DNA of 64,000 nt from positions 186,001 to 250,000 of the forward strand of contig NZ_FNHE01000006.1 in the NCBI RefSeq assembly GCF_900103785.1, read 5' to 3'. The DNA is from Geodermatophilus siccatus (GTDB taxonomy: Bacteria > Actinomycetota > Actinomycetes > Mycobacteriales > Geodermatophilaceae). Each line of letters starts with the position of its first letter. The stretch's first letter is position 1. Position numbers and translations under genes: made by a program. The notes beneath the pieces were generated by a model. The model did not search any database, was not told the DNA's origin, and was given only the letters and a program-made list of their open reading frames with translations. Below, in pieces: positions 24,941 to 28,587 of this stretch.

Positions 24941-25267
24941 TCACCTCCCGCGACGTTCCCTGCCCGTGTCCGGGGGACGGCGCCGGACGGCGGGGACGCC
25001 CTGCCGGAGGAGGTCGGCCAGGACCCCCTCGGCCATCCGTCTGCGGGCGTCGGCGCGTTCCCGCAGCACCGCGGCGAGGTGGGGGCTGGCGCACCGCCCG
25101 GCCCGGGCCTCCAGCACGTTGGCGGTCTCCACGCAGAGGGCGTACCGGCGCAGCAGGTCGAGCAACTCCCGGCGGGACTCGAACGACGGCCGGGGCGGCA
25201 CCGCCCCCCCGCCGGTTTCTCCGGAGAGCCGGGACGGGCTGCTGCCGACGGCGCCGCGCACGGTCAC
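24941..25267 (-). CDS. Uncharacterised helical protein at the end of the stressosome operon
   Basis: The 108-residue protein is not recognised. Residues 30-95 look like a helical bundle (ESRRELLDLLRRYALCVETA, then HLAAVLRERADARRRMAEGV and LADLLRQGVPAVRRR); two cysteines are present (in YALCVE and RCASPH) but not in a WhiB pattern. GAGGAGG lies 8 nt before the GTG at 25267, which is chosen over the overlapping GTG at 25276. It begins 83 nt after the RsbU-like gene on the same strand, so it is likely the last gene of the operon. It could be a small partner or output protein of the sigma-RsbT system; this is inference from position. Confidence 0.6.
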   Translation of the reverse strand: MTVRGAVGSSPSRLSGETGGGAVPPRPSFESRRELLDLLRRYALCVETANVLEARAGRCASPHLAAVLRERADARRRMAEGVLADLLRQGVPAVRRRPPDTGRERRGR

Positions 25268-25350
25268 GGTCGCCACCTCCTCGCGATCGACGGTGGTCTG
25301 TCGCAGAGGAGGACGCGCCCGGCGTCCGGGGATGACGCGGGCCGTGTCGT

Positions 25351-25635
25351 TCAGGAGCCCGGGCCGCGCCGCGCCATGTCGTAGCTGGCCAGCACCTCGA
25401 CGAGGAAGTCCGACGCCGACCGGGCGATGAGGGGCACCTCGGCGGCCGGGCTGTCCCGGAGCACCTCGGCGAGGACGTCGTGGTGGACCTGGACGACCTC
25501 GAGGGGGCTGCGGCCGTCGGCCAGGGCACCGCGCCCCAGCTGGTAGCCGCTGTGCAGCGCGGACTCCTCGCGCCGCGACAGGTACCGCAGGAACGCGGCC
25601 CGGTAGTCGCGGAGCAGGGTCTCCCGTGCCGTCAC
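25351..25635 (-). CDS. Free-standing RsbU N-terminal (RsbT-binding) domain protein
   Basis: The 94-residue protein aligns over its whole length with the first 84 residues of Bacillus subtilis RsbU (as I remember that sequence): LLRDYRAAFLRYL, ESALHSGYQLGRGAL, PLEVVQVHHDVLAEVL and the closing DFLVEVLASYDMA. In RsbU this four-helix domain binds the RsbT kinase and so switches on the attached PP2C phosphatase. Here the domain ends at the stop codon and no phosphatase follows. The GTG overlaps the stop of the RsbS gene (GTGA). It probably binds the RsbT part of the sigma fusion, acting as adaptor, competitor or anti-sigma-like factor. Confidence 0.8.
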   Translation of the reverse strand: MTARETLLRDYRAAFLRYLSRREESALHSGYQLGRGALADGRSPLEVVQVHHDVLAEVLRDSPAAEVPLIARSASDFLVEVLASYDMARRGPGS

Positions 25636-26021
25636 GTGCGCGGCGCCGGCGGTGCCGCGAGGCAGCTGTCCAGCTCGGCCAGGCCCTCCTCCAGGTCGAG
25701 TGCGGTGACCACCCGGCCGGTGTCCATGCCGAGCTCCACCATGGCGAACGCGACGTCCGGCTGGATCCCGACGATCACGGTCACCGCCCCACGCAGCCGG
25801 GCCATCTCGCCGATGTCGCGCAGCGTCCGGGACGCGAAGGAGTCCAGGACGTCGAGGGCGGCCACGTCGATGACGACCCCCCGCGCGCGGTCGGAGCCGA
25901 TCCGTTCCACCAGGTCCTGCTGGAACCGCACCAGCTGCGAGTCGTCCAGGGCGGTGTGGATCGACGCGATCAGGTACGGGCCCTGCCGCAGGATGGAGAA
26001 CAGCCGCGGGCCACCGTTCAC
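25632..26021 (-). CDS. rsbS: Stressosome STAS protein RsbS
   Basis: The 129-residue protein is a single STAS domain: GPYLIASIHTALDD, VVIDVAALDVLDSFASRTLRDI with Ser61 at the place of the RsbT target Ser59 of B. subtilis RsbS, and IVGIQPDVAFAMVELGMD. It should form the stressosome core with RsbR and be phosphorylated by the RsbT domain encoded two genes upstream. Its start overlaps the RsbR stop by 4 nt. The phospho-acceptor serine is intact, unlike the equivalent site in RsbR. Confidence 0.88.
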   Translation of the reverse strand: MNGGPRLFSILRQGPYLIASIHTALDDSQLVRFQQDLVERIGSDRARGVVIDVAALDVLDSFASRTLRDIGEMARLRGAVTVIVGIQPDVAFAMVELGMDTGRVVTALDLEEGLAELDSCLAAPPAPRT

Positions 26022-26923
26022 GGCCCACCGTTCCCGTCGTCGCGGGACACCGCGTACCCCAGCAACCGCTCGGCCTCCTCGAGGCCGCCCTGCAGGTCGC
26101 CGATGGTGTTCATCTTCGACAGGTCGACGCCGATGGTGACCAGCGTCTGGGCGATCTCCGGGGAGAGCCCGGTGATGATCACGCTGGCGCCCATCAGCCG
26201 CGAGGCGTCGACCGTCCGCACCAGGTGGTTGGCGACGGACTCGTCGACGTCCGGGACGCCGGTGATGTCGACGACGACCACCTTCGCCCGGTGCGTGCGG
26301 ATGCCCCCGAGCAGCTGCACGGTCAGCTGCCGCGCGCGCTCCCGGTCGAGCACCCCGATGATCGGCAGGATCAGCAGCCGCTCGCGGACCGGCAGCACCG
26401 GCGTCGACAGCTCGCGGATGGAGTCCTGCTGCTGTCGGATGACCCGCTCGCGCTCCTCGACGAAGCTGACGGCCACGGTGTTGGCGATCCGGTTGGCGGC
26501 CGGCTCGTAGGCGTCGAGCACCCGGTTGAGCAACGCGAAGTCGCGCTGGTACTTCTCGAACAGCGACCTGGCCAGCACGTCGCGCAGCAGGAGCACGATG
26601 CCGACGACCTCGTGGGTCTCCACGCCGCGCGGGATGATCCGCTCGGACAGGTCACGGGCGTAGTGCTGCAGCGCCTCCACGCTGCCGGTCTCCAGGACCT
26701 CGACGTAGTTGTCGTAGACGAGCGTGGTCTCGGCGGACATCTCCTGGGCGGTCATCGCCTGCAGGAGGTGGGCCTCCTGGATGCGGCCGACCCACTCCTG
26801 GCGCAGGCGGGTGCGGTGCTCGCGCAGGTGGGCCACCAGCTGCGGGAGGAGCGCCTCCCCGTCGAGCTCGTGCCTGACGTCCGTGGGAGCCACGGTCGCG
26901 CTCGGGTCCTCGTGCCTGGTCAT
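26018..26923 (-). CDS. rsbR: Stressosome sensor RsbR (RsbRD-type N-domain plus STAS)
   Basis: The 301-residue protein has an all-helical N-terminal RsbRD-like domain (residues 25-150) typical of RsbT co-antagonists, a linker helix and a STAS domain (175-290: LPIIGVLDRERARQLTVQLL, VVVVDITGVPDVDESVANHL, GLSPEIAQTLVTIGVDL). By alignment from memory, Thr260 matches Thr205 of B. subtilis RsbRA, but the position of Thr171 is Glu228 (DVDES). The ATG at 26921-26923 overlaps the stop of the sigma-RsbT gene (ATGA), deciding it over an upstream GTG at 26938. The N-domain is the likely signal input; the signal is unknown. Confidence 0.9.
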   Translation of the reverse strand: MTRHEDPSATVAPTDVRHELDGEALLPQLVAHLREHRTRLRQEWVGRIQEAHLLQAMTAQEMSAETTLVYDNYVEVLETGSVEALQHYARDLSERIIPRGVETHEVVGIVLLLRDVLARSLFEKYQRDFALLNRVLDAYEPAANRIANTVAVSFVEERERVIRQQQDSIRELSTPVLPVRERLLILPIIGVLDRERARQLTVQLLGGIRTHRAKVVVVDITGVPDVDESVANHLVRTVDASRLMGASVIITGLSPEIAQTLVTIGVDLSKMNTIGDLQGGLEEAERLLGYAVSRDDGNGGP

Positions 26924-27999
26924 CCCTCTCCCCGCCACTTCGTCATCGTCACCGTGGTGCCGCGGCCGGTCTCGGAGACCACCGCGAACTCGTCCATCAG
27001 CCGTCGGGCGCCCGGCAGCCCCAGGCCGAGCCCGTGGTAGGTGCTGTAGCCGTCCTGCAGCGCCTGGTCGACGTCGGGGATCCCCGGGCCCGCGTCGCGG
27101 GCGACGATGGAGATGCCCCTCCGCGGCTCCTGCAGCTCCGTCACGACGACCTCGCCGGAGTCCGCGAACCGCACGATGTTGCGGGTGATCTCCGACACCG
27201 CCGTCGCGATCAGCGTGACGTCGGTGGTCGAGAAGCCCAGCCGGGTGGCGACCTCACGAGCGGCCTGCCGGGCGGCGACGACGTCGGCGTCGGTGCGCAC
27301 GGCGACCCGCACGGCGTCGTCCCGGGACCGCCCGCGTCCCACCAGGGGCTCGGAGAGCCGCGCGCACAGGCCGCACTCCAGCAGGTGGCGGGCGGCGTCG
27401 ACCTCGCGCTGGCGACGGCGGTCGCCGCTGGAGATGGCCAGCAGCACCGGCCGGCAGCGCTCCGTCGGTGGCTCCACCCGCTCGGAGACGAGGAGGTACT
27501 CCACCCGCAGCCGGGCGCGGGTGCGGTTGAGCTGGGCGGCCACCGCACCGGCGGTGGACCCCAGCTCGGCGGCCAGGGACCGGGTGTCCTGACCGGAGAC
27601 CTCGTGGGCGAGCAGCGTCGCCCGCTCGCGGTCGGACAGCCGGGTCAGGGCCTCCGCGACGGCGGCGCGGTCCTCGCGGGCGAGGACGTCCTCGTCCGGC
27701 GCCTCGGGGGGCCGCAGGTCGACGACGCGGTGCTGGTGCCGCCGCTGCCGGTCCTGGTCCCGCCACATCGAGGTGACGACGTTGCGCGCCGTCACGATCG
27801 CGTAGGGCTCGAGCATCCCCGGCTCCACCCGGCCGGCGGCGGCGAGGACCCGGGTCAGGGTCTCCTGGACCAGGTCGTCGGCGGTCGCCGGGTCGGGGAC
27901 GCGGGACGCCACGATCCGGCGGACGAGCGGGATCAGCGCTGCGACGTCCGCAGACCCGCAGTCACCTCCCGGGCTCCCCACCGGCTCGACCGCCGCCAC
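26920..27999 (-). CDS. ECF-type sigma factor fused to an RsbT-type serine kinase
   Basis: One uninterrupted frame of 359 residues joins a sigma factor to a switch kinase. Residues 20-92 are sigma region 2 (ATADDLVQETLTRVL, PYAIVTARNVVTSMWRDQDR). Residues 112-168 are region 4 (LTRLSDRERATLLAHEVSG, then SLAAELGSTAGAVAAQLNR). An HX3CX2C motif (His205, Cys209, Cys212) like that of zinc anti-sigma domains follows. Residues 230-355 are an RsbT-like GHKL kinase: N-box EITRN (270-274), DAGPG (302-306), the lid DGYSTYHGLGLGLPGARRLMDEF and GRGTT. Start: GTG 27999, 7 nt after TACCGT; longer frames lack support. It heads the operon sigma-rsbT, rsbR, rsbS, rsbU-N. I know of no characterised protein with this order. 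Confidence 0.88.
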   Translation of the reverse strand: MAAVEPVGSPGGDCGSADVAALIPLVRRIVASRVPDPATADDLVQETLTRVLAAAGRVEPGMLEPYAIVTARNVVTSMWRDQDRQRRHQHRVVDLRPPEAPDEDVLAREDRAAVAEALTRLSDRERATLLAHEVSGQDTRSLAAELGSTAGAVAAQLNRTRARLRVEYLLVSERVEPPTERCRPVLLAISSGDRRRQREVDAARHLLECGLCARLSEPLVGRGRSRDDAVRVAVRTDADVVAARQAAREVATRLGFSTTDVTLIATAVSEITRNIVRFADSGEVVVTELQEPRRGISIVARDAGPGIPDVDQALQDGYSTYHGLGLGLPGARRLMDEFAVVSETGRGTTVTMTKWRGEG

Positions 28000-28012: not shown

Positions 28013-28243
28013 CGCCCGGGGGTCCCCCGTCGGCGCGTCGAACGGACAGTCCTCGGACGCCTCCCCCCCTCGTGCATGACGCGGATCCGGAGGTCGCATC
28101 GGCCGGTCCCGACGACGTGCTGGGACGCACGACGCACGCCCGAGCAGGGACGACACCGGGACGGCGACCGGGAGGAGCGGCCCGGCAGCGCTCGTCACCC
28201 CCGCAGGGGAGCGGCGTCTCCATCCGTGCAGGGCCGTACTCCT

Positions 28244-28287: not shown

Positions 28288-28587
28288 GTGATCAGCACAT
28301 GGGCACGCAAGGCCGTCGTCCCGGTGTTCGCCGGCGCCGCGGTGATCGCCGCTGCGACGCCTGCTGCGGCGCAGCCGAACCAGCAGGACGGACTCATCAA
28401 CGTCAACGTGGGGGACGTGACGATCCTCGAGGACGTCAACATCGGGGTCGCGGCCCAGGTGGCGGCCCAGATCTGCGGTGTCAGCGTCGGGCCCGTCGCC
28501 GTCCTCGGCCGGGCCGTGGACCGCAGCGGTGACACCCGGACCGTCTGCGAGAGCGACCAGGGACCGGTCACCCTCAGGCAGAACTGA
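28288..28587 (+). CDS. Small secreted protein, unknown family
   Basis: The 99-residue protein has a clear signal peptide (WARKAVVPVFAGAAVIAAAT, cleavage expected after PAAAQ) and a mature part of about 70 residues with a beta-rich, Asn/Val-alternating stretch (GLINVNVGDVTILEDVNIGV), AAQVAAQICG and two cysteines (in QICGV and RTVCES) that could form a disulfide. The pattern recalls small actinobacterial surface proteins such as chaplins or rodlins, but key features of those families are not met, so no family is assigned. AAGGAGG lies 6 nt before the start. It is divergent from the sigma-RsbT operon and a candidate target of that sigma factor. Confidence 0.75.
   Translation: MISTWARKAVVPVFAGAAVIAAATPAAAQPNQQDGLINVNVGDVTILEDVNIGVAAQVAAQICGVSVGPVAVLGRAVDRSGDTRTVCESDQGPVTLRQN

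Follow-up and report, generated by a model that had tools for sequence, protein, structure and literature searches.

An ECF sigma factor fused to an RsbT-type switch kinase, encoded with RsbR and RsbS in Geodermatophilus siccatus and relatives

The window analyzed here, a stretch of 64,000 nucleotides from Geodermatophilus siccatus (contig NZ_FNHE01000006.1, positions 186,001 to 250,000), carries a gene that joins an ECF sigma factor, a ZAS-like segment and an RsbT-type kinase in one chain, next to genes for RsbR, RsbS, a stand-alone RsbU_N domain and a small secreted protein (Table 1). The initial annotation had described a single frame of 359 residues with sigma regions 2 and 4, an HX3CX2C motif and an RsbT-type GHKL kinase with intact N, G1 and G2 boxes; its coordinates proved exact, and the strand, which it did not give, is minus. 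The Pfam search that it had proposed placed Sigma70_r2 at residues 20-84 (E 8e-13), Sigma70_r4_2 at residues 112-164 (E 2e-6) and HATPase_c_2 at residues 237-354 (E 2e-14), all above their curated cut-offs. As in ECF factors, regions 2 and 4 are the only sigma regions present, and TIGR02937 scored 73.2 bits against a cut-off of 42.9. Alignment of 26 family orthologues revealed that the DLVQE of sigma region 2, the kinase box residues and the annotated H205, C209 and C212 are invariant, as is a further candidate ligand, C182. The key box residues (S-E-x-x-R-N, D-x-G-P-G-I-x-D and G-x-G-L-x-G) were kept in all 37 fusions compared, the exceptions within the boxes being Pro to Gly in G2 of one and Leu to Met in G2 of two.

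Table 1. Features of the fusion locus, in positions of the window
Feature	Position	Strand	Basis or remark
Fused gene: ECF sigma factor (sigma 2, sigma 4), ZAS-like segment and RsbT kinase, 359 aa	27999 down to 26920, stop included	minus	
Sigma region 2, residues 19-85	27745..27945	minus	Pfam; DLVQE invariant
Sigma region 4, residues 112-170	27490..27666	minus	Pfam
ZAS-like segment C-x22-H-x3-C-x2-C, residues 182-222	27334..27456	minus	Conserved ligands; no Pfam match
RsbT kinase domain, residues 232-356	26932..27306	minus	Pfam and box residues
Leaderless-type -10 box TACCGT	28012-28007	minus	7 nt 5' of the GTG start
RsbR, RsbRD_N and STAS; ATGA overlap with the fusion stop	26018..26923	minus	RsbRD_N 21.7 bits, below the Pfam cut-off of 24.3
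RsbS, STAS, phospho-Ser position kept; GTGA overlap	25632..26021	minus	Pfam and alignment
Stand-alone RsbU_N domain, 94 aa, no phosphatase domain; GTGA overlap	25351..25635	minus	
Candidate promoter of the fused sigma factor, CGTCAC-N17-GTCTCCA, 2 mismatches to consensus	28193..28222	plus	
Small secreted chaplin-like protein, 99 aa, probable output gene	28288..28587	plus	

None of the three weaknesses that the initial annotation had anticipated was borne out. There was no stop or frameshift between the domains, all 26 full-length orthologues being free of internal stops. No start codon from which the kinase part might be made separately was conserved at the junction: among the 32 junction codons scanned, ATG, GTG and TTG were absent from 6 of the 26 orthologues, and the commonest position was common to only 18. 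The sigma part is not degenerate, since every segment was under purifying selection, with dN/dS values over 12 chosen pairs of 0.135 (sigma 2), 0.137 (sigma 4), 0.099 (zinc segment) and 0.183 (RsbT). The intact orthologues, the purifying selection and a conserved start region rule out an artefact of a stop, a frameshift or a wrong start. Translation begins at the GTG at 27999, and a hexamer TA[CG]C[GTC]T, a pattern composed after inspection of the orthologues themselves, lies 6-7 nt 5' of an in-frame start in 24 of the 26. The promoter of the operon looks like the housekeeping type. Autoregulation from an ECF-type promoter found no support, as no -35 conservation was seen upstream of the operon in 24 aligned loci.

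To locate the operon elsewhere, the window proteins were used as tblastn queries. The order fusion, RsbR, RsbS, RsbU_N on one strand was fixed in all 39 loci with room on their contig, the RsbT domain being encoded with RsbR and RsbS in every one, as expected of an RsbT; two further loci cut by contig ends (G349 and a fusion fragment in G010) were left out. Stops within the matches occurred only at the C-terminal ends of RsbS (L064) and RsbR (L198). Start and stop codons overlapped by four bases at the three successive junctions in 35, 33 and 34 of 37 loci, and at all three in the window. Within the family, the proteins co-occurred in an all-or-none manner: the same 26 of 96 genomes, from 6 of 12 genera, carried the full-length fusion, RsbR and an RsbU_N above the Pfam cut-off, 69 carried none of these, and G010 had the fusion fragment only, at a contig end. 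Among the other window neighbors sought, a metallophosphoesterase gene and a penicillin-binding protein gene recurred solely in the nearest relative (L033). In draws that overlap, and with just the top few candidates per genome scored, the full-length fusion was found in 17 of 298 genomes of the order (5 outside the family), 4 of 394 of the class (3 from other orders) and 4 of 396 of the phylum (2, G941 and G883, from another class). Among at most 80 loci listed, a set that may omit near relatives, the named carriers are two strains of Humibacillus xanthopallidus and two MAGs, one from Tetrasphaera and the other labelled Nocardioidaceae. These four may be the same as genomes counted in the draws, and the MAG labels may be wrong.

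Between the sigma and kinase parts, the pattern C-x22-H-x3-C-x2-C was present in 40 of 40 fusions and also in 12 of 12 sister proteins (L065, L171, L172, L180, L194 and L207-L213), which share the sigma-ZAS module and carry a membrane helix instead of RsbT. We take the Cys...His-x3-Cys-x2-Cys arrangement to correspond to the zinc site that defines ZAS anti-sigma factors, and the segment is likely a built-in anti-sigma factor. No zinc-finger or ZAS family of Pfam matched the window protein (E up to 1) or the five fusions and three sisters scanned (E up to 10). A hydrophobic helix past the zinc segment (19-residue mean hydropathy of at least 1.6) was found in all 12 sisters versus none of the 40 fusions. 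By eye, 11 sisters share an outer domain, and L194 ends at a contig edge past the helix. One genome, G103, encodes both a fusion and a sister, the latter cut at the contig end. In a sigma-ZAS tree of the 40 fusions and 12 sisters, the fusions fell within the spread of the sisters, and in an RsbT tree of 40 fused and 38 separate RsbT proteins, some fusions fell among the separate ones. Neither tree resolves the direction of the exchange or a single origin of the fusion, which may still hold. The existence of these sisters suggests that a sigma factor can have its input module swapped between membrane and stressosome. As a separate observation, the outer domain (GFWVG...VWVQL...GQxVSFxG in L065, L171, L172, L180 and L207-L213) had no good Pfam match in three sisters scanned and may be an unnamed sensor domain.

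The phosphorylation sites of the stressosome proteins were surveyed in 37 of the 39 operon loci and placed via Listeria and Bacillus-type chains. The phospho-Ser of RsbS (S59/S56 equivalent), the presumed acceptor for RsbT, was kept in all 37. In RsbR, the second site (T205/T209 equivalent) was Thr in all 37. The first site (T171/T175 equivalent) was Glu in 31, Ala in 3 and Gln, Val or His in one each; it was never Ser or Thr, and part of the usual phosphorylation cycle is therefore lost. In contrast, at the eight loci with a separate RsbT, the seven actinobacterial RsbR rows had Ser or Thr there, the match at the eighth (L067) being an RsbS-like protein. Excerpts of PMC3944199 describe that in B. 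subtilis the Thr at the T171 site already carries a phosphate before stress, which seems to help RsbS become phosphorylated. For Listeria, parts of a preprint (PMC12154155) describe RsbR T175E as locking a pre-activated state, a mutant that the authors could not obtain. Given this behavior, the Glu that occupies the priming site of RsbR makes the fused systems appear primed by nature.

In Bacillus, RsbT quits the stressosome after phosphorylating RsbS and RsbR, and free RsbT binds the RsbU_N domain and activates the phosphatase RsbU; sigma-B is freed two steps later. Two arginines of the fused RsbT, which we equate with R19 and R23 of Bacillus RsbT, were invariant in 26 of 26 orthologues and, by eye, also present in the 40 fusions. 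The position that we presume to be N24 was Glu or Asp in 37 of 37 fusions. On the other side, the orphan RsbU_N kept E24 in 39 of 39 loci and did not keep Y28 and I78; I74 was Ile in 3 of 39 and mostly Leu or Val. The full-length RsbU of the separate-RsbT locus L203 likewise has none of the Y28, I74 and I78 residues. Parts of PMC12143880 name R19, R23 and N24 of RsbT and E24, Y28, I74 and I78 of RsbU for this binding and describe the linker of RsbU as a major contributor to activation. The orphan stops near the end of its domain, 88-145 residues past the match start in all 39 loci, and so cannot hold a phosphatase domain. Partners in the own genome were sought with RsbT and RsbU_N: at E 0.001, the operon orphan was the sole RsbU_N, no RsbU phosphatase with an RsbU_N was found, and the whole-protein search matched the fusion and one sigma factor, revealing no second RsbT. 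The genome has 18 SpoIIE-type phosphatase matches.

The initial annotation had proposed that release from the stressosome would deliver the sigma factor itself. Part of this stood. Sigma factor and RsbT form one conserved polypeptide, RsbR and RsbS are co-encoded, and the search of the own genome revealed no RsbU phosphatase; it is therefore plausible that the kinase brings the sigma factor to the stressosome and takes it away again. The proposal had overlooked the orphan RsbU_N, the zinc segment that is likely a built-in anti-sigma factor and the membrane-anchored sisters; given these, release alone may not yield an active sigma factor. From the comparisons above, a shortened stressosome pathway, with release of the sigma factor itself and RsbU_N as a second partner, appears fairly probable. 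At rest, the fusion would dock by its RsbT domain on the RsbR/RsbS core, with the sigma factor kept off RNA polymerase. Under stress, RsbT would phosphorylate RsbS, and the fusion would leave the core with its own sigma factor. The freed face of RsbT would then be taken by the small RsbU_N in place of the RsbU phosphatase of Bacillus, and this contact would most likely open the ZAS-like clamp and complete activation.

The main rival gives that contact the opposite sign: RsbU_N would inhibit by capturing free sigma-RsbT, and the stressosome would serve as the platform on which the sigma factor works or as the place that passes it on. Binding of either sign fits the gene order and the conserved E24 and presumed R19/R23 equivalents, and the lack of an effector and of a linker in the RsbU_N domain speaks for the rival. 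However, binding of RsbT to the N-terminal domain and linker of RsbU is the activating event in Bacillus (described in parts of PMC12143880), and we consider inhibition unlikely. Less probable still is a role of the RsbT domain chiefly in cis, as an anti-sigma factor of the SpoIIAB/RsbW kind directed at its own sigma domain, with RsbR and RsbS as anti-anti-sigma factors. Among solved structures, the kinase part matches the sigma binder SpoIIAB best, and parts of PMC8999054 describe ECF sigma factors with fused anti-sigma parts, but the likeness to solved SpoIIAB (32 bits) or RsbW (18 bits) is remote, whereas the kinase part is 55-58% identical to the separate RsbT of the RsbR-RsbS-RsbT loci L066, L067, L202 and L203; moreover, the zinc segment common to the sisters is already a built-in anti-sigma candidate. 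That the fusion yields two proteins in practice, by cleavage or an internal RsbT start, and merely equalizes dosage is comparably improbable: proteolysis is the expected means of release for ECF sigma factors whose zinc extension is anchored in the membrane (parts of PMC8999054), but here an internal start is not conserved and is absent from the junction in 6 of 26 orthologues, and several families as well as a second class of the phylum retain the fusion.

In the preferred reading, a shortened pathway with RsbU_N as activator, the active sigma factor would transcribe from CGTCAT-N17-GTCTTCA promoters, foremost that of a chaplin-like gene for a small secreted protein next to the operon. Such a gene adjoins the operon in the window and many relatives, and homologues (E 1e-5) were found in 15 of the 26 operon-bearing genomes versus none of the 70 others. 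The Pfam family ChpA-C matched above its cut-off in one of four relatives scanned (L053, 24.4 versus 21 bits), matched weakly in L039 and gave no match in L049, L245 or the window copy. The consensus CGTCAT-N17-GTCTTCA precedes chaplin-like genes near the operon, and its looser form CGTCAY-N17-GTCTYCA occurred at 20 sites in 20 of the 39 operon loci (372,164 bases), where the same halves were absent at all other spacers from 10 to 25. Twenty first-order simulated sets gave 0 or 1 match each. The 77 other loci over 8 kb, which include two second copies of operon loci, gave one match, in such a copy (L060), and no match came from the 12 loci that carry sisters or a separate RsbT. With up to two mismatches, the motif preceded 13 of the 17 chaplin-like genes with upstream room (18 minus L061, whose contig begins just before the gene), compared with 23 of 1500 random 230-base windows of the same loci, which include the motif sites themselves. 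The L039 gene is preceded by CGTCAT-N17-GTGTCA. In the two genomes of the second class, G941 and G883, the best upstream match was CGTCAT, a spacer of 17 and CTTATC in both, the CGTCAT half being part of the search pattern.

Across whole genomes, the loose form gave 31 matches in the 26 operon-bearing genomes versus 34 in the 70 others and is therefore largely background; the reversed pattern gave 9 across all 96. The strict form CGTCAT-N17-GTCTTCA separated the two groups, with 17 matches in 16 of 26 operon-bearing genomes versus 1 in 1 of 70 others; 15 of the 17 lie in the loci from which the motif was derived, and because the genomes are related, the P value of 1e-10 should not be read literally. 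Only two strict matches in operon-bearing genomes lay outside operon loci, in G023 and G043. G023 is the best independent case, as its secreted gene lies on a different contig from the operon and yet has a perfect motif upstream. In the own genome, the loose and the reversed loose pattern each matched once and the strict motif not at all. Since the window site at 28193 has two mismatches and the strict form is absent from its genome, it rests on its neighbors in L033 and L034. We infer that the fused sigma factor reads CGTCAT-N17-GTCTTCA as its candidate motif.

Some motif sites lacked an evident gene. Perfect sites pointing to the 3' end of the operon were found at L037:2153, L039:7055, L041:4266 and L042:2702, perhaps reflecting a lost chaplin gene, a small RNA or antisense control. 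In L044, L047 and L198, a gene scan listed no gene behind the motif, which carries little weight because the scan overlooked known genes as well, those of L033 and L051. The strict site of G043 (L238:1530, minus strand) precedes the gene of a 73-aa protein that has CxxC pairs and what looks like a membrane segment, a possible further target.

A more specific reading, which we hold tentatively and judge slightly short of an even chance, is a one-step and permanently primed stressosome. The sigma factor would be the cargo of the kinase, the RsbU-RsbV-RsbW relay would be bypassed, the RsbR Glu would act as a phosphomimetic, RsbU_N would open the ZAS clamp, the output would be a chaplin-like surface protein, and the module would have arisen when RsbT took the place of the membrane sensor in a sigma-ZAS protein.

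The system resembles the RsbR-RsbS-RsbT stressosomes of Bacillus, Listeria and other actinobacteria in its RsbR with RsbRD_N and STAS domains, the RsbS phospho-Ser and the intact RsbT boxes, and the RsbR of two separate-RsbT loci from the same order (L202, L203) is 76-80% identical to that of the window. It differs in that RsbT is separate in those systems, followed in L203 by an RsbU_N-PAS-SpoIIE-HATPase protein, whereas here RsbT is fused to a sigma factor and RsbU is reduced to its N-terminal domain; the priming site is Ser or Thr there and mostly Glu here. As in the ECF52, ECF48 and ECF53 sigma factors, among them SCO4117 of Streptomyces, an ECF sigma factor and a ZAS extension share one chain (parts of PMC5826349 and PMC8999054), but those proteins continue into membrane helices and outer domains, and proteolysis is expected to release them (parts of PMC8999054), while the fusion ends in RsbT without a helix. 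BldN of Streptomyces is likewise an ECF sigma factor with chaplin-type output genes, but it is held by a separate anti-sigma factor, RsbN, and not by a stressosome (parts of PMC4255298), the candidate mode of control here. The initial annotation knew of no characterised protein with this architecture, and literature searches of open-licence PMC papers turned up none; a fusion of this kind is not named in the excerpts of PMC8999054, PMC5826349, PMC8103513, PMC3944199, PMC8115616, PMC9237128, PMC4976288, PMC9239204, PMC12154155, PMC4255298 and PMC12143880.

If the preferred reading is true, no shorter path from a stressosome to transcription is known to us, and the system would be a clean one for the old question of what release of RsbT does, free of intervening phosphatase and anti-sigma steps. 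It would also pair an orphan RsbU_N with a likely partner in the same operon, and it offers, ready-made in nature, a test of what Glu does at the priming site of RsbR. The predicted promoter and target gene make the model testable in harmless soil actinobacteria.

Two minor observations concern neighboring variants and genes. In Streptomyces loci L068-L072, RsbR, RsbS and RsbT are followed by a second RsbT-like match, which in L068 lies in a frame of 530 residues and may be another variant output. In the window, positions 24941-25276 (minus strand) encode a 111-aa protein without a Pfam family above cut-off, found as a single copy in its own genome. Of 26 family loci, 14 have its gene next to the operon, 4 of them on the downstream side and 10 upstream in the same orientation, and in L036 a perfect sigma motif precedes the homologue.
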